A DNA stretch of 64,000 nucleotides, from the NCBI RefSeq assembly GCF_001669775.1, contig NZ_LXWK01000015.1, forward strand, positions 496,001 through 560,000. The letters are read 5' to 3'. Positions 51,623 through 63,857 of the stretch are shown piece by piece. The stretch comes from Rheinheimera sp. SA_1. GTDB lineage: Bacteria; Pseudomonadota; Gammaproteobacteria; Enterobacterales; Alteromonadaceae. How positions within the stretch are numbered: position 1 is the first letter of the stretch; every line of letters begins with the position of its first letter. Position numbers and translations under genes: made by a program. The notes under the pieces are model-generated. The model made no database searches and was not told the DNA's origin. It worked only from the letters and a program-made list of their open reading frames with translations.

Positions 51623-53907
<2,285 letters not shown>

Positions 53908-53912
53908 CCACA

Positions 53913-54653
53913 ATGAAACTTGCCGTGATCCCGGCGCGGGGTGGCAGCAAACGGATCCCGCGTAAAAATATCAAGCTGTTTAATGGCAAACCAATGATTG
54001 CCTGGTCGATTGAAGCGGCATTGCATAGTCAAATGTTTGACCAGGTGCTGGTGTCAACCGACGATCAGGAAATTGCCGAAGTCGCTGCGCAATATGGCGC
54101 AGCAGTGCCATTTATCCGCCCTGCCGCTTTAGCCGATGACCACACCGGCACTTCTGCGGTGGTGCGTCATGCGATTGCTTGGGTCACACAGCAACAATGG
54201 CATGCTGAACAAGGCCCGTTAGATATTATCGCCTGCATTTATGCCACTGCCCCGCTGTTAAGTGCAGAAATTTTGCAACAAGCGATGGCTTTATGGCCGC
54301 AGCAGCCAGAGCTTGATTACATTTTTTCCGGTTGTCGTTTTAGTTTCCCCATTCAACGGGCGTTATATCGCGATACGACAGGCGCCGTTGCTCCGGTACA
54401 ACCGGATGCAATTGGCAAACGCTCGCAGGATTTAACCGAAACCTTTCATGATGCCGGCCAGTTTTATCTGGGCCGGGCGCAAAGTTGGTCAGAAGCCCGG
54501 CCAGTATTTTCGAAGTCATCTTATCTTTTTGAATTACCCCAACATCTGGTGCAGGACATCGATACTGTTGATGACTGGCAACGCGCCGAGTTATTGCACC
54601 AGCTGCTGCTTCAACGAGTATCGCAAAGCGCCAAGCCGCCAAAGGCTGACTGA
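53913..54653 (+). CDS. pseF: Pseudaminic acid cytidylyltransferase PseF
   Basis: Activates pseudaminic acid to CMP-Pse, the donor for glycosylation. The 246-residue protein has the CTP-binding ARGGSKRIPRKNIKLFNGKP, VSTDDQEIAEVA and the later DAGQFYLGRAQSW metal-binding region typical of PseF. It follows pseC by five bases and its stop overlaps the pseG start as TGATG. Confidence 0.94.
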   Translation: MKLAVIPARGGSKRIPRKNIKLFNGKPMIAWSIEAALHSQMFDQVLVSTDDQEIAEVAAQYGAAVPFIRPAALADDHTGTSAVVRHAIAWVTQQQWHAEQGPLDIIACIYATAPLLSAEILQQAMALWPQQPELDYIFSGCRFSFPIQRALYRDTTGAVAPVQPDAIGKRSQDLTETFHDAGQFYLGRAQSWSEARPVFSKSSYLFELPQHLVQDIDTVDDWQRAELLHQLLLQRVSQSAKPPKAD

Positions 54654-55798
54654 TGCAGGTATTGTTTCGGGTTGATGCGTCGCTGTTGATTGGCTCTGGC
54701 CACCTGATGCGCTGCTTAACGCTCGCCCGTGCCATGCGTGAACGCGGCTGGCTAGTGACGTTTTGTTGTCGCGAACACCCTGGTCAGCAAATTCAGTTGA
54801 TAGAAAATCAGGGCTTTGCTTGTCTGGCGTTGCCGTTGTTGGCTGATGCAACTAAAACCCCATCATCCAGCACAGTAAAAGAAGGCGACCGCCAATGGTT
54901 AGGTGCCAGCGAAGCCGAAGACGCTGCCGCTGTCATCGATGCATTACAACAAGCAGCGCTACAACCCGATTTATTGGTGATTGACCATTATGGCCTCGGC
55001 CGATTATTCGAAACGACGTTAAGCCAGCATTGCCGACATATTCTGGTGATTGATGATTTGGCCAACCGACAGCACGACTGCGATTTTTTACTCGATCAAA
55101 ATTTATTACCAGACGCAGCCGAGCGTTACCAAGGTTTGCTGCCAAACACTTGCCAACAATTTATCGGACCGGCTTATGCTCTGCTGCGGCCAGAATTTAC
55201 ACAAGCCGCAACTTCAGAAGCTGCGCAACCCATTGCCCTATCAAAAGATTTCTCGGCAACACCTCATCAATTACTAGTTTTTTTTGGCGGCAGCGATATC
55301 GACAATCTCACTGCATTAGCAATTACTGCTTTACAGCAACTTCAGAATTTGGCCTGGCTGGCCGATATCGTGATTGGTTCAGCCAATCCGCACCTATCGT
55401 TGTTGCAGCAGCTGTGTGAAGGGGACCATCGGCTAACCCTATACGTGCAAACGCCAGGGATGGCACAGCTGATGGCCAAAGCACAGTTGATGATTGGCGG
55501 CGGTGGTGCAACCCACTGGGAACGTTGTGCTATGGCATTACCTGCGCTGGTAGTCAGTCTGGCGCCAAACCAGCAACCGACCAGCGTTTATCTGGCTAAA
55601 CTAGGCGCTTGTATATACTTAGGCAGTAGTTCTGAGCTTAGTAGTGGCAGATTGAGTGACGAAATCGCAAAGCTGCTGACACAACCGGAAAAACTATTGC
55701 AGATGGCCGCAGCCGCTTCGACGTTGGTTGCTCCGGAAGGGGGTTGCCAGCGTCTTTTAAGCGCACTGGCGAAGACGCTGGAACATCAGGCAAACTAA
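54653..55798 (+). CDS. pseG: UDP-2,4-diacetamido-2,4,6-trideoxy-altropyranose hydrolase PseG
   Basis: Removes UDP from the diacetamido sugar to give free 6-deoxy-AltdiNAc. The 381-residue GT-B-like protein starts FRVDASLLIGSGHLMRCLTL with the catalytic His in GSGHLMRC, has VIDHYGLG, IDDLANRQHDCDFLLDQN and the C-terminal IGGGGATHWERCAM. It is somewhat longer than typical PseG, with an insertion around residues 65-90. Confidence 0.93.
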   Translation: MQVLFRVDASLLIGSGHLMRCLTLARAMRERGWLVTFCCREHPGQQIQLIENQGFACLALPLLADATKTPSSSTVKEGDRQWLGASEAEDAAAVIDALQQAALQPDLLVIDHYGLGRLFETTLSQHCRHILVIDDLANRQHDCDFLLDQNLLPDAAERYQGLLPNTCQQFIGPAYALLRPEFTQAATSEAAQPIALSKDFSATPHQLLVFFGGSDIDNLTALAITALQQLQNLAWLADIVIGSANPHLSLLQQLCEGDHRLTLYVQTPGMAQLMAKAQLMIGGGGATHWERCAMALPALVVSLAPNQQPTSVYLAKLGACIYLGSSSELSSGRLSDEIAKLLTQPEKLLQMAAAASTLVAPEGGCQRLLSALAKTLEHQAN

Positions 55799-55898
55799 CC
55801 ATCAGCGATTAAATAGCAAAAACTTTGTCACAGCTGCAAAACAGCTTCGATCCGGTTCGAATGAAAACCGCAGGATCCACAACTAAGAGTGAAGTTAT

Positions 55899-56957
55899 AT
55901 GGCAGTAACCACAATCCAACTGGGTAATGTTCAGGTAGGCGCCACGCACCGGCCTTTGATCATCGCCGAATTGTCCGGCAATCATGATCAATCGCTGGAT
56001 AAAGCCTTAGCTATGGTGGACGCCGCTGCTGCTGCTGGCGCCCAGGCGATTAAACTGCAAACTTACACTGCAGACACCATGACGCTGGATATCGACAGCG
56101 GTGAATTCTTTATCGATAATCCGGACAGCCTCTGGGCCGGTACTTCATTGTACAAACTCTATCAAATTGCCCACACGCCGTGGGATTGGCATCAGGCCAT
56201 CTTTGAGCGCGCAAAAAGCCACGGCATGCTGGCGTTTAGCACCCCTTTTGATTTAACCGCGGTCGACTTTTTAGAGTCGCTCAACGTGCCTTGCTACAAA
56301 ATCGCCTCTTTTGAAAATACTGATCATGCATTATTGGCGGCGGTGGCAAAAACCGGTAAACCGGTGATTATGTCCACCGGCATGGCCAGCATTGCCGAGC
56401 TCGCTGATGCAGTGGATGTGTTAAAACGCCACGGCTGTACTCAGTTGATTTTGCTCAAATGCACCAGCAATTATCCGGCACGACCGGTTGATGCCAACCT
56501 TTTGACCATCCCCCATCTGGCACAGTTATTTGATTGTCAGGCAGGGCTCTCCGACCACACCACTGGCATTGGCGTGTCGATCGCAGCCGTGGCACTTGGC
56601 GCCACCGTCATCGAAAAACACTTTGTGCTGGATCGCAGTGAAGGTGGTGTGGATGCAGAGTTTTCGCTGGAACCGTTTGAGATGAAACAGTTGGTTGACG
56701 AAACCGAACGCGCGTGGACTGCCCTTGGCAAGGTCCATTATGGCGTGACTGACAAAGAAATTGCTTCGCGTAAACACCGGCGCTCCTTGTATATCAGTGC
56801 AGATTTAGCCGCCGGTACTGTGCTCACCGCCGAAAATTTACGCGCTATTCGTCCGGGGTTAGGATTGGCGCCCAAATATCTGGAACTGGTGCTGGGACGG
56901 CAAGTGAAAGCCGATGTCAAACGAGGCACTGCGTTGAGCTGGGATTTGTTGCTTTGA
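55899..56957 (+). CDS. pseI: Pseudaminic acid synthase PseI
   Basis: Condenses 6-deoxy-AltdiNAc with phosphoenolpyruvate to form pseudaminic acid. The 352-residue protein has the NeuB-type barrel (IIAELSGNHDQSLDKALAMV, AIKLQTYTADTMTLD, KCTSNYPA, GLSDHTTGIGVSIAAVALG, EKHFVLDR) and a C-terminal antifreeze-like SAF domain (SLYISADLAAGTVLTAENLR). The NSLWAGTSLYKLY-like stretch points to PseI rather than NeuB. A 100-base gap separates it from pseG, the largest inside this operon. Confidence 0.95.
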   Translation: MAVTTIQLGNVQVGATHRPLIIAELSGNHDQSLDKALAMVDAAAAAGAQAIKLQTYTADTMTLDIDSGEFFIDNPDSLWAGTSLYKLYQIAHTPWDWHQAIFERAKSHGMLAFSTPFDLTAVDFLESLNVPCYKIASFENTDHALLAAVAKTGKPVIMSTGMASIAELADAVDVLKRHGCTQLILLKCTSNYPARPVDANLLTIPHLAQLFDCQAGLSDHTTGIGVSIAAVALGATVIEKHFVLDRSEGGVDAEFSLEPFEMKQLVDETERAWTALGKVHYGVTDKEIASRKHRRSLYISADLAAGTVLTAENLRAIRPGLGLAPKYLELVLGRQVKADVKRGTALSWDLLL

Positions 56958-57583
56958 GTGCTGCTAATCCTCAAAACACATCAGCCGATAGTATGTGGCA
57001 TCAGCAAAACATCTGCGAATTCTCCGTCGAGTTGCGGCCCCTGCAACGCCAACAACTTGAATTACTGCGCCAATGGCGCAACGATCCGGTCATTGCCGCG
57101 CCGATGTTGCAGCAACAACTGATTAGCGCAGAAATGCAGCAACAATGGTTTACGCGAATTCAACACGACAAACATCAAGCGCAATTTGTGATTTATTACA
57201 AAGACGAAGCAATTGGCGCCTGCAATTTAAAAAGTAACGATGGTTTGGAGCTTGGAAAGTGTGAAACTATCGAATCAGGCTTTTATCTGGCGCATCCGCG
57301 GTTTCGTGGCACCTTGCTGGCATTTTTCCCAGCGCTGGCGCTGAATCAGTATTGCTTTGGACGACTTAACTGTAAGACACTATTGGCACAAGTGAAACTA
57401 AGTAATAATGCCGCTTTGCGCTTTAATGAAAAACTCGGTTATCAGCGCCAGCCAGACAATGTCACAGTACAGACTGGCAGCGAATTAACTGGCTTTGAGC
57501 AGGTTGAGCTGGCCGTATTCACACTGAATAATGAAAATCATCTAAAAGCAGCGGCAACTTTTGCCCATTTTATCCGGAATTAA
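56954..57583 (+). CDS. pseH: PseH-like GNAT N-acyltransferase
   Basis: Expected to N-acetylate the C4 amine of the PseC product. The 209-residue GNAT protein has LRPLQRQQLELLRQWRNDP near the N-terminus, IESGFYLAHPRFRGTLLAFF, and NNAALRFNEKLGYQRQ near residue 155. The start is TTG (56954-56956), which overlaps the pseI stop as TTGA; an in-frame ATG at 56993 has no ribosome binding site. It is directly followed, one base later, by a carrier protein gene, so the acyl donor may be an acyl-ACP or the acyl group may not be acetyl; this is inference. Confidence 0.85.
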   Translation: MSAANPQNTSADSMWHQQNICEFSVELRPLQRQQLELLRQWRNDPVIAAPMLQQQLISAEMQQQWFTRIQHDKHQAQFVIYYKDEAIGACNLKSNDGLELGKCETIESGFYLAHPRFRGTLLAFFPALALNQYCFGRLNCKTLLAQVKLSNNAALRFNEKLGYQRQPDNVTVQTGSELTGFEQVELAVFTLNNENHLKAAATFAHFIRN

Positions 57584-57584
57584 T

Positions 57585-57887
57585 ATGACAGCAGCCAATC
57601 ATACCGACCTTCAAATCAGCAATACCGGCCGCTTAAAACATGCTTTCGCCACGGCGCTGGCGATTGATGTGGCGCGCATTAGTGATGATTTAGCCTATAA
57701 CAGCATCGCCGAATGGGATTCGACCGCCCATATGCTGCTGATTGCCGAACTGGAAAATTGTTTTAATCTGATGCTGGATACCGACGATATTATCGATATG
57801 AGCTCGGTGCAGATGGCCAAAACCATTCTGAGCAAACACGGTGTAGTGTTTGAGCATATCACCACTGATCACGCGGGTTCTGATTGA
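57585..57887 (+). CDS. Acyl carrier protein
   Basis: A 100-residue phosphopantetheine carrier. Ser46 in EWDSTAHMLLIAELE is the attachment site (DST in place of the usual DSL), followed by the acidic helix LDTDDIIDMSSVQMAKTIL. It is not the housekeeping AcpP (no fab neighbours) and lies between pseH and an SDR gene, whose ATG overlaps its stop as TGATG. It probably carries the acyl intermediate made by the ligase at 58645 and acted on by the SDR and LuxE/LuxC homologues. Confidence 0.9.
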   Translation: MTAANHTDLQISNTGRLKHAFATALAIDVARISDDLAYNSIAEWDSTAHMLLIAELENCFNLMLDTDDIIDMSSVQMAKTILSKHGVVFEHITTDHAGSD

Positions 57888-58648
57888 TGGGTTCAACAGC
57901 CGCATCCGACATTGATACGCCAGTAAGCCTAATCACCGGCGCCAGCCGTGGCATTGGCGCGGCAGTGGCACTGCGGTTGGCGGCGTCAGGCCATCATTTG
58001 CTTTTAACCGCCCGCAATGAACTTGGATTAACCGTCATCGCTGAACAATGCCGACAGGCTGGTGCAGCTTCAGCAACCGTCCTGCCATGCGACTTAACTG
58101 ATCAAGCCGCAGTGCTGCAAGTGTTTAATCAAATCAAACAACAACATCAACGACTAGATCATCTGATCAATGCCGCTGGCATGATGCAAGACAGCATGCT
58201 GGGCATGACCAGGCTCGCTGATCTACAGGCGTTATTTTCACTGAATGTCGCGGCCAGTTATCAATGTTGTCAGCTGGCTGCACGGCTGATGTCCCGGCAA
58301 AAATCGGGAAATATCGTCAATTTAGCATCGAAAGTTGGCGAAAGCGGCGCTATCGGCCAATCTGCCTATGCTGCCAGTAAAGCGGCGGTGTCGGGTTTGA
58401 CCAAAGCATTGGCCAAAGAGCTGGGGGCACTCGGTATTCGGGTCAATGCCGTTGCGCCTGGTTTTATTGAAACTGACCTCACCGCCCATTATAGCGCTCT
58501 AAAAAAACAACAACTTTGCCAGCAAATCAGTCTTGGCCGCACCGGTCAGGCCGATGAAGTCGCCGCTTTGGTGCAGTTTTTATGTTCGAACGATGCCAAA
58601 TATATCAGCGGCCAAATCATCGCGATTGATGGTGGTTTTAGCTTATGA
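57887..58648 (+). CDS. FabG-like SDR oxidoreductase
   Basis: Classical short-chain dehydrogenase of 253 residues with TGASRGIGAAVALRL near residue 18, the active-site tetrad Asn120, Ser148, Tyr161 and Lys165 (SLNVA, NLASKVG, YAASK), NAVAPGFIETDL and a C-terminal GGFSL end. The close match to 3-oxoacyl-ACP reductases and the neighbouring carrier gene suggest it reduces a keto group on an acyl-ACP, but substrates of such SDRs are hard to predict. It overlaps the next gene by four bases. Confidence 0.9.
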   Translation: MGSTAASDIDTPVSLITGASRGIGAAVALRLAASGHHLLLTARNELGLTVIAEQCRQAGAASATVLPCDLTDQAAVLQVFNQIKQQHQRLDHLINAAGMMQDSMLGMTRLADLQALFSLNVAASYQCCQLAARLMSRQKSGNIVNLASKVGESGAIGQSAYAASKAAVSGLTKALAKELGALGIRVNAVAPGFIETDLTAHYSALKKQQLCQQISLGRTGQADEVAALVQFLCSNDAKYISGQIIAIDGGFSL

Positions 58649-60144
58649 GCGATCCGAAGCTAGCTGACATTATCACCGACGAGCTAACTCACTCACAGAA
58701 AGAACAGCAGGAACAGCAAGCTCCGCAGCGTCGGCGCCATTTTGCCCGCCAGCTCGAGCAGTTTGGTGACGCCACAGCTTTAGTGCTGAATGATGGCCAA
58801 ACCGTCAGTTACCAGAAACTGGCACAATTGGCCGACCATTTTGCACAAAACTTTGTCCGTTTTGATGTCTGGCCACATCAGATTTGCGCGCTGCAATGCC
58901 GGAATAATTTAACCTCAGTCGTCGCCTATTTAAGCTGTCTGCGTCATCAACGGCCGTTGTTATTGCTGGATCCGGCGCTGCCACCGGCTCAGCTTGAAGA
59001 ACTGATTAAACGTCTGGAAATAGCGGCGCTAATTAATGAACAAGGCGAAATGACCCGCATCAGCACTTCAGCATTTCGGGCCAGAACTGATTTAGCCTTA
59101 TTACTCAGTACCTCTGGCAGCACCGGCAGTCCGAAGTCGGTGATGTTGTCGCAAGTGAATCTGCAGGCTAATGCGGTCTCCATCAATGACTATTTGCCGA
59201 TGCTCGCCACCGATACCGCCATCACATCCTTGCCACTACATTATTCGTATGGCTTGTCGGTGCTGAACAGCCATTTATTGCTGGGCGCGAAAATCGTGCT
59301 GACCGACTATTCGGTGATGAATAAAGAATTCTGGCAACTGGTCAATCAACATCAGGTGAATAGTCTGGCCGGTGTGCCTTTTAGCTATCAAATGCTAAAA
59401 ACTTTACGTTTTGAACGTTTACCGCTGCCCGCTTTGCGTTACCTGACGCAGGCTGGTGGCAAATTAACCCCAGAGCTCACCAGCTATGTGCAGCAGCTGA
59501 GTCAGCAGCGGCCAATCCCGGTTTATCTGATGTACGGTCAAACCGAAGCCACAGCTCGCATTGCTTATCTGGCCCCTGAACATCTGCCAAATCATGCCGA
59601 TTGCATTGGCAATGCCATTCCCGGCGGCGAATTGCTGCTGCGCGACCCACAGGACCATACGGTGATCGAAAAAGTGCTGACCGCAGGAGAGCTGTGTTAT
59701 CGCGGTGCAAATGTGATGCTGGGTTATGCCACCAATTCCAGCGAGTTGCGCGCAACTCAGCGCCTCAATGAGCTTGCGACCGGTGATTTGGCCGAACAGT
59801 TGCCAAACGGCTTGTACCGGATTGTTGGCCGGTTAAACCGGATGTTAAAACTGCAGGGTAAACGGTGGACGCTGGATCATCTTGAAACGACGTTTAGCAG
59901 TCAGGGCTTAAAAGTGGTCTGTACCGGCCGAGACGACTTTTTGGTGATAGGTGCAATTGACCCTAATGCCGCATCGGAAGCGCCGGCAAAGGTCAGTCAT
60001 TTCCTGCAGCAGCAACTGCATCTGCACCCAACTTTGTTTAAGGTACTGTTATTACGTGATATTCCGTATACCAGCAGTGGTAAAATTCACTATCAGGCCA
60101 TTTTAAATCTGGCGGGTGGAGGTACTGCCGATGCAGCTGGCTGA
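58645..60144 (+). CDS. Acyl-AMP ligase (ANL superfamily)
   Basis: Adenylates a carboxylic acid with ATP and transfers it to a thiol, likely the adjacent carrier protein. The 499-residue protein has the ATP loop LLSTSGSTGSPKSV (about 153-166), YGQTEATARI, the TGDLAEQL aspartate motif, the hinge GRLNRMLKLQGKR and the C-terminal catalytic Lys480 in TSSGKIHY, so it should be active. It lacks a condensation or carrier domain. The acid cannot be predicted from the binding pocket by eye. Confidence 0.9.
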   Translation: MSDPKLADIITDELTHSQKEQQEQQAPQRRRHFARQLEQFGDATALVLNDGQTVSYQKLAQLADHFAQNFVRFDVWPHQICALQCRNNLTSVVAYLSCLRHQRPLLLLDPALPPAQLEELIKRLEIAALINEQGEMTRISTSAFRARTDLALLLSTSGSTGSPKSVMLSQVNLQANAVSINDYLPMLATDTAITSLPLHYSYGLSVLNSHLLLGAKIVLTDYSVMNKEFWQLVNQHQVNSLAGVPFSYQMLKTLRFERLPLPALRYLTQAGGKLTPELTSYVQQLSQQRPIPVYLMYGQTEATARIAYLAPEHLPNHADCIGNAIPGGELLLRDPQDHTVIEKVLTAGELCYRGANVMLGYATNSSELRATQRLNELATGDLAEQLPNGLYRIVGRLNRMLKLQGKRWTLDHLETTFSSQGLKVVCTGRDDFLVIGAIDPNAASEAPAKVSHFLQQQLHLHPTLFKVLLLRDIPYTSSGKIHYQAILNLAGGGTADAAG

Positions 60145-61276
60145 TGAACTGCCTTACGCCCTTGCAGCTGTCGATAAAACCCCGCGCATGCTGGCGGAGT
60201 TACAGGCACTGACGTTATGGCACCAGCAACAATGTCCGGCCTATCAGCAATTAGTCACCGCACAGTGGCCAGATTTTTCTGTGAATGCTGCCGGTAATCA
60301 CAACTGCGTCGACAATCTGGCGCAACTGCCCTATCTCGCTGTACGCTTGTTCAAACAACTCGAATTACGATCAGTACCACAAGAAGCCGTATTTAAAACC
60401 TTATATTCCAGCGGCACCACCGGCACACCTTCCCGAATTTTTCTCGATCGCGACAGTGCCGCAGTGCAGTCAAAAATACTGGTCAAAATCATGCAGCATT
60501 GGCTGGGCAAAGCCCGTTTGCCGATGTTGATCCTGGACCATCCAGGGGTTATCAGCGATCGCAGCAATTTTTCAGCCCGTGGCGCTGGCATTCAGGGTTT
60601 GAGTTTTATGGGCCGCAATCATTGTTACGCTTTTAACGCCGATATGAGTCTGAACTGGACTGCGCTTGAGCAATTTGTTGAGTCTTATGGTGAAGGCCCA
60701 GTGTTGTTATTTGGCTTTACCTTTATGGTCTGGCAACATTTGCTGCAGGCTTTAATGCTAATTGGCCGTCGGATCCATTTACCACAAGGTATTCTGCTGC
60801 ATAGCGGCGGCTGGAAAAAACTCGAAGATCAAGCGGTCAGTAATCAGCAGTTTAAACAAACCGTGGCTGAACTTACCGGTATTTCCCGCGTGCATAATTT
60901 TTACGGCATGGTCGAGCAAATCGGCGCCATTTTTGTTGAATGTAACGCCGGTCATCTGCACTGCCCGGTGTACGCCGATGTGCTGGTGCGTCGCCCTGGA
61001 AGCTGGGAAGTTGCGGACATCGGCGAATCCGGCGTATTGCAACTGCTATCGACGCTGCCACGCAGTTACCCCGGCCATAGTTTGCTGACCGAAGACCGGG
61101 CGCAATTGCTCGGCGAAGATAATTGCAGTTGTGGTTTACCCGGTAAATATTTCCGTATTCTTGGCCGCTTGCCACAGACTGAAGCGCGTGGTTGCAGTGA
61201 TACTTTTGTACCGGCTCTTCAGCGCAAAGATCTGTCAGGAGCTCAGGCAGAAACTCAGACAGGAGCCGCACTATGA
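60131..61276 (+). CDS. LuxE-like acyl-protein synthetase
   Basis: Homologue of LuxE, which activates a fatty acid as acyl-AMP and carries it on a cysteine for reduction by LuxC. The 381-residue protein has the ATP-binding KTLYSSGTTGTPSRIFLDRD near residue 95, LLFGFTFMVWQHL, LLHSGGWKKLEDQAV and HNFYGMVEQIGAIFVEC, and near the end Cys355 in EARGCSDTF, at the place of the acylated LuxE cysteine. The ATG at 60131 has GGAGG nine bases upstream and overlaps the ligase gene by 14 bases. There is no luxD and no luciferase gene here, so bioluminescence is not indicated. Confidence 0.9.
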   Translation: MQLADELPYALAAVDKTPRMLAELQALTLWHQQQCPAYQQLVTAQWPDFSVNAAGNHNCVDNLAQLPYLAVRLFKQLELRSVPQEAVFKTLYSSGTTGTPSRIFLDRDSAAVQSKILVKIMQHWLGKARLPMLILDHPGVISDRSNFSARGAGIQGLSFMGRNHCYAFNADMSLNWTALEQFVESYGEGPVLLFGFTFMVWQHLLQALMLIGRRIHLPQGILLHSGGWKKLEDQAVSNQQFKQTVAELTGISRVHNFYGMVEQIGAIFVECNAGHLHCPVYADVLVRRPGSWEVADIGESGVLQLLSTLPRSYPGHSLLTEDRAQLLGEDNCSCGLPGKYFRILGRLPQTEARGCSDTFVPALQRKDLSGAQAETQTGAAL

Positions 61277-62448
61277 GTTTTACCGTGCTAAATCCTGCCA
61301 TCGAACCAGCGATGCTGAGCGCCCCTTTTGCACCAGCAGATTTTGCTTACTGTCAGGCGTTGTCAGAAGCGCTGCTCAAAGATCCGCAAAGCCGCGATTA
61401 TCCGGATTTGATCGCACTTGGTTTCTGGTTACGCCAGGCCAACTTAAAGCCGCTACTGGCCCCCTATCAACAAAGCGATTTTTTCCGCCAGCCATTGGGC
61501 CTAATATTTCATAGCGCGCCGGCCAACGTTGACAGTTTATTTGTGTATTCCGGTATTTTAAGTTTGCTCTGTGGCAACCAAAACGTCATTCGGCTCTCAA
61601 GTCGCAGTGGCGGCAGCACTGCCGTATTAATAGAAAAAATCCGCGGTATCGCTGATGCTTTTCCGCTGCAAAATGCCCGTTTTCAGTTAATCCAATGCAG
61701 TTACGACAGCCCACAATTAAAACCACTGATTGCAGAGGTCGATGGCCGTGTGTTGTGGGGTTCAGATCAGGCGATCCAGGCACAGCGTCAGTTAGTGATG
61801 CCAGCGCATGCCCGTGAGCTGAGTTTTGGCCATAAATTCTCATTGTGTTTGTTAGGAGCCGAAGCATTATTGCAGGCGGACGACACGCAATTCCAGCAAC
61901 TACTGCAAATGTTCTATCGCGACCAGTTAACCTTTTCGCAGCAAGGTTGCTCTTCAGCCAAAGCAGTAATTTGGCTGGGAGATACAGCACAGGTACAACA
62001 AGCACAGCAACGGTTTTGGCCAGCCTTTACCGAACTGGTGGCGCACAAACAACCACTGAATGCCAGCGAGCAATATCAAGCACTCGCCAATGCACAACAG
62101 CTGATTATGAGTAGTGACACTCAGCTGACATTAACCCAGCAACAGACAATTTCCCGCATCACAGTTGCGCAATTGGAGCCGATGTTTACCAATCTGCATC
62201 AGGGCTGTGGTTTGTTTCTGGAATTAGCGCTTACAGACTTACAACGATTAAATCCAATGCTGACACAAGCACATCAGACGCTAACAGTATGGGGTGTGGA
62301 TACATCACAACTTAAAAACTGGCTAAGCACAGTGCACACAGGCTTGGATAGAATCATGCCGGTTGGTCAGGCACTGAGTTTTAGTCCGGACTGGGATGGC
62401 GTGAATTTGATTGAGCAGTTTAGCCGCAAGATAGTCTGCCAGGTTTAA
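61273..62448 (+). CDS. LuxC-like acyl (acyl-thioester) reductase
   Basis: Homologue of LuxC, an NADPH-dependent enzyme that reduces an activated acyl group to an aldehyde through an acyl-cysteine. The 391-residue protein keeps the cofactor region (LIFHSAPANVDSLFVYSGILS then GNQNVIRLSSRSGGST), SFGHKFSLCLL, and the catalytic Cys226 in TFSQQGCSSAKAV. It is about 90 residues shorter than lux-operon LuxC, mostly at the N-terminus. It overlaps the LuxE-like gene by four bases, as expected for a LuxC-LuxE complex, and its stop overlaps the converging glycerophosphotransferase gene. Confidence 0.9.
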   Translation: MSFTVLNPAIEPAMLSAPFAPADFAYCQALSEALLKDPQSRDYPDLIALGFWLRQANLKPLLAPYQQSDFFRQPLGLIFHSAPANVDSLFVYSGILSLLCGNQNVIRLSSRSGGSTAVLIEKIRGIADAFPLQNARFQLIQCSYDSPQLKPLIAEVDGRVLWGSDQAIQAQRQLVMPAHARELSFGHKFSLCLLGAEALLQADDTQFQQLLQMFYRDQLTFSQQGCSSAKAVIWLGDTAQVQQAQQRFWPAFTELVAHKQPLNASEQYQALANAQQLIMSSDTQLTLTQQQTISRITVAQLEPMFTNLHQGCGLFLELALTDLQRLNPMLTQAHQTLTVWGVDTSQLKNWLSTVHTGLDRIMPVGQALSFSPDWDGVNLIEQFSRKIVCQV

Positions 62449-63857
62449 GGCTGCTGTTTAAGCTGCTGCAAATAAGCAATCAGCGTCGGACAACACAGGG
62501 TGTTCACCATACTAAATTTCTGCTGCAAGGCCTGGCGTTTGGCGGCAAAACGGTCGGACGTTAAATCCAGTGCCATCTGCTCTAACAACTGCGCAAAAGT
62601 CTCTGCCGTGCTGCCGGCGATAAAATCTTCTTTGGCAATAGCAAACTGACCACGTACTTTGGCGTACTGCTCAATGTCATACATAAAATGCAAAACCGGT
62701 TTATTACAAAGCAGAAAGTCAAAAGCTACCGACGAATAGTCGGTGATCAGCAAATCTGCGTCCGCCAGCCAAGGATAAACATTAAAACGCCCGGGATAGT
62801 GGAAAATCCGATTACAGCCATCATGTTGGCGCAGCTTTTCAAAAGGCGCCAGGAACGGATGGGTTTTCATCACAAACACCGCGTCGTGCTGCTGCAGAAA
62901 TTGCTGTAATTCAGCCCAATCAATCGGATGCTCGTTTTGGCCGTTGTCACGGTAGGTTGGCATGAATACAATCAGTTTCTTGCCTGCCCGAATTTGCTGT
63001 AACTGTTGCTCCGGCAGACTATTGTGCCAACAGCGGTGTGCTGGCACCTGCAGCAAAGCGTCATTGCGAGGATAACCAAAATCCAGATAGTGTCTGGCCT
63101 TAAACATTCCGGGGAAAATCTGCTGATTAAACCAGCTGGAACTGGATGCAAAAGCTTCATCCAGAATATGTGGAAAATGTTTATTGCCAGCAAGATGCTT
63201 AAACGGCAAACCATGCCACAGCTGCACCACTTTTGCCTGAGTGCGCACCCGATTCAACACCGGATCGGTGGATTCATGATCCAGCACCAGCACCTTCGCC
63301 CGCTGCAGCATCCAGCGTACCTGCCATGCCTGGTCAATTTGCGCTGGGTGGAAACAACGCTGCGCGTCTTTCACCACCAAATAAACATTTTTATGCAGAC
63401 GACAATGTGCATCAAAAGCCACCAGCACGTTGCTATCGACATACTTTTCGGCGTAATAAACCACCGGACCTTTAGGCAGCAAATCCAGTACCGATGCAAA
63501 ATATTCATGAAGAATCACTCCGAGCTTTTTCAGCACCGAGCCTGTTTGAAAAGGCACAAACTGCAAGGGTTGCAAGCTGTTGCAACACCAGATCTGGTTG
63601 GCCACAAAGCCATTTTGTAGCATTCCTTCTGCGATTTTCTGCTGAAAATCACTGACGGCAATCAGCACGGCATCATAAGGTTTGCTTTGCGAAGCATGAT
63701 TACAAATATCAGGCCTCTGCTTCAGGTTATCGACCATCCCAAGCACCACAGCACCTCGCTGTTGCAGTACTAGCGCGAGATGCCTGCCGGCCGGATTATC
63801 CGGTGCGATGTAAAGACGCTGGCCTTGCCAGTCATTGACTTCACGCGAGATTGGCAT
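62445..63857 (-). CDS. CDP-glycerol glycerophosphotransferase family protein
   Basis: A 470-residue TagB/TagF-type transferase that moves glycerol phosphate (or a related polyol phosphate) from its CDP form to an acceptor. The catalytic half shows VVQLWHGLPFKHLAG with the key histidine, FMPTYRDNG, VMKTHPF, and LLITDYSSVAFDFLLCNKP with the second conserved His/Asp/Ser region and FMYDIEQY. The N-terminal 130 residues look like a separate Rossmann-like domain. It ends by overlapping the LuxC-like gene tail to tail. With the TagD-like gene behind it, it probably adds glycerol phosphate to a glycan, perhaps that of flagellin; this is inference from neighbours. Confidence 0.88.
   Translation of the reverse strand: MPISREVNDWQGQRLYIAPDNPAGRHLALVLQQRGAVVLGMVDNLKQRPDICNHASQSKPYDAVLIAVSDFQQKIAEGMLQNGFVANQIWCCNSLQPLQFVPFQTGSVLKKLGVILHEYFASVLDLLPKGPVVYYAEKYVDSNVLVAFDAHCRLHKNVYLVVKDAQRCFHPAQIDQAWQVRWMLQRAKVLVLDHESTDPVLNRVRTQAKVVQLWHGLPFKHLAGNKHFPHILDEAFASSSSWFNQQIFPGMFKARHYLDFGYPRNDALLQVPAHRCWHNSLPEQQLQQIRAGKKLIVFMPTYRDNGQNEHPIDWAELQQFLQQHDAVFVMKTHPFLAPFEKLRQHDGCNRIFHYPGRFNVYPWLADADLLITDYSSVAFDFLLCNKPVLHFMYDIEQYAKVRGQFAIAKEDFIAGSTAETFAQLLEQMALDLTSDRFAAKRQALQQKFSMVNTLCCPTLIAYLQQLKQQP

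Follow-up and report, generated by a model that had tools for sequence, protein, structure and literature searches.

A carrier protein and LuxE/LuxC module accompanies a P-loop-less PseH in the pseudaminic acid operon of Rheinheimera sp. SA_1: comparative analysis and a proposed N-acylation route

A 64,000-nucleotide stretch of Rheinheimera sp. SA_1 DNA (contig NZ_LXWK01000015.1, positions 496,001 to 560,000 of the forward strand; the whole stretch is called the window here, and the nearest named relative of its source genome is R. riviphila) carries a pseudaminic acid (Pse) operon in the order pseB-C-F-G-I-H (51740-57583), followed on the same + strand by five genes (57585-62448) encoding an acyl carrier protein (ACP), a short-chain dehydrogenase/reductase (SDR), an AMP-forming acyl ligase, a LuxE-like acyl-protein synthetase and a LuxC-like acyl reductase (Table 1). 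All five are open frames with intact active sites. The place, strand and order given for them in a preliminary description of the window were confirmed, as were its residues ACP Ser46, ligase Lys480, LuxE Cys355 and LuxC Cys226. The SDR tyrosine that it numbered 161 is also intact, and is residue 161 or 162 depending on the start, an ATG at 57887 being present inside the frame 57884-58648. Its statement that all overlaps are four bases or shorter was in error: the ligase and luxE frames overlap by 14 bases from the luxE ATG at 60131.

Table 1. Features of the Pse operon and the adjoining module (window coordinates)
Feature	Coordinates	Strand	Evidence
pseB	51740..52741	+	NCBIfam PseB 548.6 bits, above cut-off
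pseC	52738..53907	+	NCBIfam PseC 547.4 bits, above cut-off
pseF	53913..54653	+	NCBIfam PseF 302 bits, above cut-off
pseG	54653..55798	+	Glyco_tran_28_C 5.6e-10; slot conserved in pse operons
pseI	55899..56957	+	NCBIfam PseI 498 bits, above cut-off
pseH, module-type N-acyltransferase (proposed acyl-ACP user)	56954..57583	+	GNAT Acetyltransf_3 3.5e-13; PseH 73.9 bits; own clade
PseH stretch GFYLAHPRFRGTLLAFF without the Gly-x-Gly/Ala CoA-pyrophosphate P-loop	57278..57328	+	consensus from PMC4964394
acp, dedicated carrier protein; Ser46 at 57720-57722	57585..57887	+	PP-binding 17.3 bits; serine motif; orthologues in same slot
sdr, FabG-like short-chain reductase; YxxxK tyrosine at 58367-58369	57884..58648	+	adh_short_C2 2e-58; YxxxK, TGxxxGxG
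AMP-forming acyl ligase; Lys480 at 60082-60084	58645..60144	+	AMP-binding 2e-52
luxE-like acyl-protein synthetase; Cys355 at 61193-61195	60131..61276	+	LuxE 6.5e-40
luxC-like acyl reductase; Cys226 at 61948-61950	61273..62448	+	LuxC 2.9e-26

The ACP is a weak family match (Pfam PP-binding, 17.3 bits against a cut-off of 20.8); homologues of it occur at this position in about 50 further loci, and Ser46 lies within a W-D-S-T motif. The catalytic cysteines do not vary among homologues: LuxE Cys355 is the same in all 42 compared, and LuxC Cys226 in all 47. LuxE aligns with Photobacterium phosphoreum LuxE (7xc6_E), catalytic Cys included, and the AlphaFold model of LuxC (pLDDT 94) has as its top fold match the LuxC chain of that structure, a LuxC-LuxE fatty acid reductase complex (7xc6_A; Z 30.3, root-mean-square deviation 3.3, 371 aligned residues), followed by aldehyde dehydrogenases (Z 26). 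Fold and both catalytic cysteines are thus shared with the lux system, whereas the NCBIfam equivalog cut-offs for LuxE and LuxC are far from reached (40.5 of 550 and 23.7 of 750 bits, respectively). No luxA, luxB or luxD was found in the operon, the open reading frames of the operon and its ends all being assigned to other families.

The gene set itself is already known. The same five genes follow pseH in the Aeromonas Group II flagellar glycosylation islands (98 strains), where they were read as channelling fatty acids into a fatty aldehyde (PMC7874193), and Acp, FabG, CaiC, LuxE and LuxC in enterobacterial flagellin glycosylation islands were read as forming a "liposugar" component (PMC4875605). 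The remark in the preliminary description that it knew of no defined chemistry still holds, although the arrangement had been published. Such lux-like genes have been listed in flagellar islands for about ten years with these guesses attached; we found neither a test of them nor a mutant of any of the five genes in the papers that could be read. Rheinheimera agrees with the Aeromonas Group II islands in having acp, a FabG-like gene, an AMP synthetase gene, luxE and luxC in that order directly after pseH. It differs in that pseBCFGI are contiguous in one operon, in that luxC is followed by a PF04464 gene on the opposite strand instead of the fgi-1 GT2 glycosyltransferase, and in that the operon contains no Maf, whereas maf-2 lies beside pseI in Aeromonas. 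The enterobacterial islands share the five families, but PseC was found in two strains and PseH in one (PMC4875605), so that in these islands the acceptor is mostly a sugar other than Pse. The new content is the association of the arrangement with an altered PseH, and the mechanism following from that; the Rheinheimera locus itself fits well into an arrangement that was known but unexplained.

To survey module loci, the LuxE Pfam family (PF04443) was used as seed, a single-protein LuxC search being too strict for wide use (hits in 3 of 321 class genomes). LuxE was present in 7 of the 321 genomes of the class and in 61 of 395 genomes of the order, some of these being true lux operons or weak matches. 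The neighbourhoods of about 60 loci were then read with profiles built from the window genes, and a module locus was defined as acp, ligase, luxE and luxC together (n=54). Sampling is uneven, Rheinheimera and an Aeromonas-like genus being over-represented, and genus counts thus weigh more than locus counts. The gene order of the module recurs in about 50 genomes, far beyond chance. In 40 of the 54 loci (17 genera) pseH immediately precedes acp, or a swapped sdr-acp pair, on the same strand, and this adjacency is kept in several loci with pseF/G/I on the opposite strand. The Aeromonas-like genus (g291) shows this same arrangement with a P-loop-less PseH. In seven of the 54 loci an acyltransferase of the NeuD/PglD/VioB family (Hexapep, TIGR03570) takes the place of PseH upstream of acp; a Deinococcus plasmid module has such an enzyme directly after luxC, and a Ponticoccus plasmid module has a GNAT directly after luxE. 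Because the module also occurs without pse genes (Deinococcus, Ponticoccus, Rhizobium and three Rheinheimera), it is not Pse-specific. Such loci usually have a NeuD/PglD-family acyltransferase beside the module, or else another GNAT. The refuting condition named in the preliminary description, that the five genes usually travel without pse genes, thus has a divided outcome: within Enterobacterales they usually go with pse genes (the 40 of 54 above), and they also occur without them in the genomes just listed. A DNA search of E. coli genomes for the module gave no match.

Module-linked PseH proteins form one clade (support 0.92). The window PseH scores 73.9 bits against the NCBIfam TIGR03585 cut-off of 93.1, and nearly all module-linked PseH also fall below it; a low score by itself is weak evidence, since PseG-PseH fusions score low as well. 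The predicted fold of the window protein is close to that of Helicobacter pylori PseH (4ri1). GNATs hold the pyrophosphate of coenzyme A (CoA) with a loop of the form Gln/Arg-x-x-Gly-x-Gly/Ala (PMC4964394), and in H. pylori PseH the pyrophosphate is held by Gly103 and Lys133 while Asn131 contacts the pantetheine arm (PMC4363471). In the alignment the Gly-x-Gly/Ala loop was kept in none of 41 module-type PseH, and the pattern replacing it was found in none of 20 non-module PseH; the position of Lys133 is Ala, Ser or Gln in all 41, and the pantetheine-contacting Asn is retained in every one. Compared with the H. pylori and Campylobacter jejuni enzymes (4ri1, 4xpk), module-type PseH therefore have the same GNAT fold, operon position and pantetheine Asn, and differ in the lost pyrophosphate loop, the Lys133 position and the separate clade. 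An ACP brings phosphopantetheine without the nucleotide and pyrophosphate of CoA, and a PseH that had exchanged CoA for ACP as its donor would hence be expected to look like this, with the loop lost and the Asn retained. A change at the catalytic Tyr was considered as additional evidence and set aside as not clean, as module-linked PseH have Asn or His and ordinary PseH have His, Phe or Tyr at this position.

Because the loop pattern had been seen before it was counted, a held-out test was made on a sample of one family by PseH profile search alone, with no reference to lux genes. The scores fell into two groups separated by a gap, one at 158-244 bits and the other at 94 or lower. All 18 new high-scoring PseH lacked the loop and each was followed by acp-(sdr)-lig-luxE-luxC, whereas none of the 13 ordinary PseH (in pse or related sugar loci) was accompanied by acp, ligase, luxE or luxC; the genomes are related and these counts are not independent trials.

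On this evidence we propose, as a probable reading, that the five genes are a portable cassette which builds an unusual short acyl group on a dedicated ACP, and that the modified PseH transfers this group to give Pse with a non-acetyl acyl at N7. LuxE would activate one carboxyl of a small acid, probably dicarboxylic or hydroxy-dicarboxylic; LuxC would reduce the activated carboxyl to an aldehyde; the SDR (or, in modules without one, a housekeeping reductase) would reduce the aldehyde to an alcohol, giving a hydroxy acid; and the ligase would load the remaining carboxyl onto the ACP. PseH, accepting the acyl group from ACP instead of acetyl from acetyl-CoA, would then attach it to the 4-amino group of UDP-4-amino-4,6-dideoxy-AltNAc, and PseG, PseI and PseF would complete the activated Pse for flagellin. 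Candidate acids are succinate, yielding 4-hydroxybutyryl, and malate, yielding dihydroxybutyryl. These parts differ in strength. Comparison shows the tie of the module to a special PseH, the loss of the P-loop there and the fusions that join the enzymes (below); the individual reactions are those suggested by the protein families, and the order of steps and the identity of the acid are speculative. The route from ACP to PseH has a reasonably good chance of being right, and the making of a hydroxy acid upstream by LuxE and LuxC falls a little short of an even chance. We also think it somewhat better than an even bet that there is a widespread, undescribed branch of Pse synthesis in which a P-loop-less PseH uses a custom acyl-ACP, LuxE/LuxC making the precursor hydroxy acid, and that the cassette is reused with NeuD/PglD-type acyltransferases on other surface sugars in several phyla.

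The preliminary description had likewise proposed a novel Pse derivative and the loading of an acid on the ACP, and both ideas gained support: in this genome the module goes together with the Pse operon, and its product is most likely a Pse of non-standard kind. Its further idea that an aldehyde or alcohol is the final donor did not. The ACP is constantly partnered by an enzyme that N-acylates amino sugars, either P-loop-less PseH or, in loci lacking pse, a member of the NeuD/PglD family, and this points to an acyl thioester as the end product. It also called the presence of two acid-activating enzymes odd, and the oddity is real; ligase and LuxE are a single fused protein in two genomes of one genus (G425 and G711), which shows the two to be working together. 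LuxE and LuxC are fused in a genome of another genus (G578); the natural fusions lie at L048 9441-12080, L057 7658-10474 and L041 14092-16416. Four genomes, from three genera, have no SDR in the module. The ligase has disappeared from the module of Rheinheimera G015 (L029 12094-12290), and about 55 kb away (L157 8591-14182) is a luxE/luxC-free cluster of acp, ligase, two SDRs, a split transketolase and an acyltransferase. The pse operon of Rheinheimera G003 (L145 9336-11659) has a module-type PseH and a ligase 67% identical to that of the window, without sdr, luxE, luxC or a clear acp, and a complete NeuD-type module lies about 60 kb from it. Both genomes would fit acid-making and acid-loading parts supplied in trans; decay is an equally good reading.

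Published glycan masses bear on the site and nature of the acyl group. The 4-amino group on which PseH acts ends up as N7 of Pse, and a plain Pse5Ac7Ac residue is 316.127. Aeromonas AH-3, which belongs to Group II and has the module, carries a Pse of 376.14 Da (PMC7874193), 60 Da heavier, and a 102 Da unit in its glycan is also unexplained; the Pse of A. caviae Sch3 is plain Pse5Ac7Ac, and that of AH-1, which is not Group II, has a mass of 403 Da. By calculation, 376.148 equals mono-N-acetyl Pse (274.117) plus C4H6O3 (102.032), the residue of dihydroxybutyric acid. This would fit malate reduced by LuxE/LuxC/SDR and then loaded by the ligase, and is a lead, not a result; dihydroxybutyryl is a possible identity for the acyl group, though on balance an unlikely one. 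No paper joining pseudaminic acid with dihydroxybutyryl, and no report of AH-3 module mutants, was found among the papers available for search.

The unexplained 102 Da unit of the AH-3 glycan favours an alternative in which the acyl group is placed on another sugar of the glycan, for example that unit, and the PseH beside acp acetylates normally with acetyl-CoA; modules without pse genes must in any case serve other sugars. This leaves unexplained both the strict link between P-loop-less PseH and the module (18/18 against 0/13) and the extra 60 Da of AH-3 Pse, and we consider it improbable. The fatty aldehyde or "liposugar" reading proposed in both island papers (PMC7874193, PMC4875605), in which ACP, FabG and ligase process a fatty acid that LuxE/LuxC reduce to an aldehyde decorating the glycan, takes its appeal from enzyme families that combine fatty acid processing with a lux reductase. 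It is slightly less probable still: a condensing enzyme, luxA/B and luxD are all missing from the operon, what constantly adjoins the ACP is an N-acyltransferase, PseH has changed along with the module, and no long-chain mass was reported on AH-3 Pse (PMC7874193). That the LuxC aldehyde is instead an acceptor for a transketolase or other C-C bond enzyme, the lengthened acid then being loaded on ACP, is very improbable. In its favour, NeuD-type modules are accompanied by split transketolases in L045, L091 and L161, as is the cluster L157, which has neither luxE nor luxC; against it, no transketolase was found in the Rheinheimera operon or among the adjoining genes.

Several points weigh against acyl transfer from ACP by the modified PseH. 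CoA is still used by some GNATs whose P-loop is atypical, and the PseH of H. pylori has itself been called atypical (PMC4964394). FdhC, an (R)-3-hydroxybutyryl transferase of amino sugars with a similar GNAT fold, also places a hydroxyacyl group on an amino sugar, but makes its N-hydroxybutyryl sugar with CoA, which is held in its structure (5ktc). To our knowledge no ACP/LuxE/LuxC cassette accompanies FdhC. The replacement pattern of the loop was defined after the alignment had been viewed, leaving the held-out set of one family as the independent one, and by the test used no acyltransferase was found beside acp in five of the 54 module loci. The AH-3 mass match concerns one strain, and isomers such as O-methylglyceryl have the same formula. 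The hydroxy-acid step proposed for LuxE/LuxC is one suggested by enzyme family, and the scheme as a whole is built on genome comparison. As a functional precedent, Shewanella sfmABCDE was rejected: it encodes a NeuB-like protein, a thiamine pyrophosphate enzyme, an SDR, a methyltransferase and an ATP-grasp protein, and is not the module. If the proposed N7 acylation is true, LuxE and LuxC are used outside light production and the presence of both ligase and LuxE is accounted for; the PseH link further predicts which atom of Pse is altered and by which gene the alteration could be recognised in any genome, and it gives a mass to seek.

Other genes accompany variants of the module. With the NeuD-type form go split transketolases (L045, L091, L157 and L161), a GMC oxidoreductase (L091, L158 and L161) and a FabZ/FabA-like dehydratase (L091 and L161). 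In L040 and L052 (family f3), ligase-LuxE-LuxC lie beside a KAS III-like gene and no acyltransferase was seen; these enzymes may serve another purpose there. Next to the Rheinheimera module, the PF04464 glycerophosphotransferase-like gene (62445-63857, - strand) faces luxC; it is 80-83% identical in several Rheinheimera and absent from that position in R. riviphila and G015. Past the window end (L023 4705-19494; G000:C12 about 564200-579000) is a legionaminic-acid type cluster with LegB, LegC, NeuC and NeuB above NCBIfam cut-offs, together with PtmE-like and NeuD proteins, and a Maf-like protein of 825 aa is encoded in the same region about 18 kb past luxC. The flagellum of the source strain may thus carry two nonulosonic acids, one from the Pse operon and one from the legionaminic-acid type cluster.

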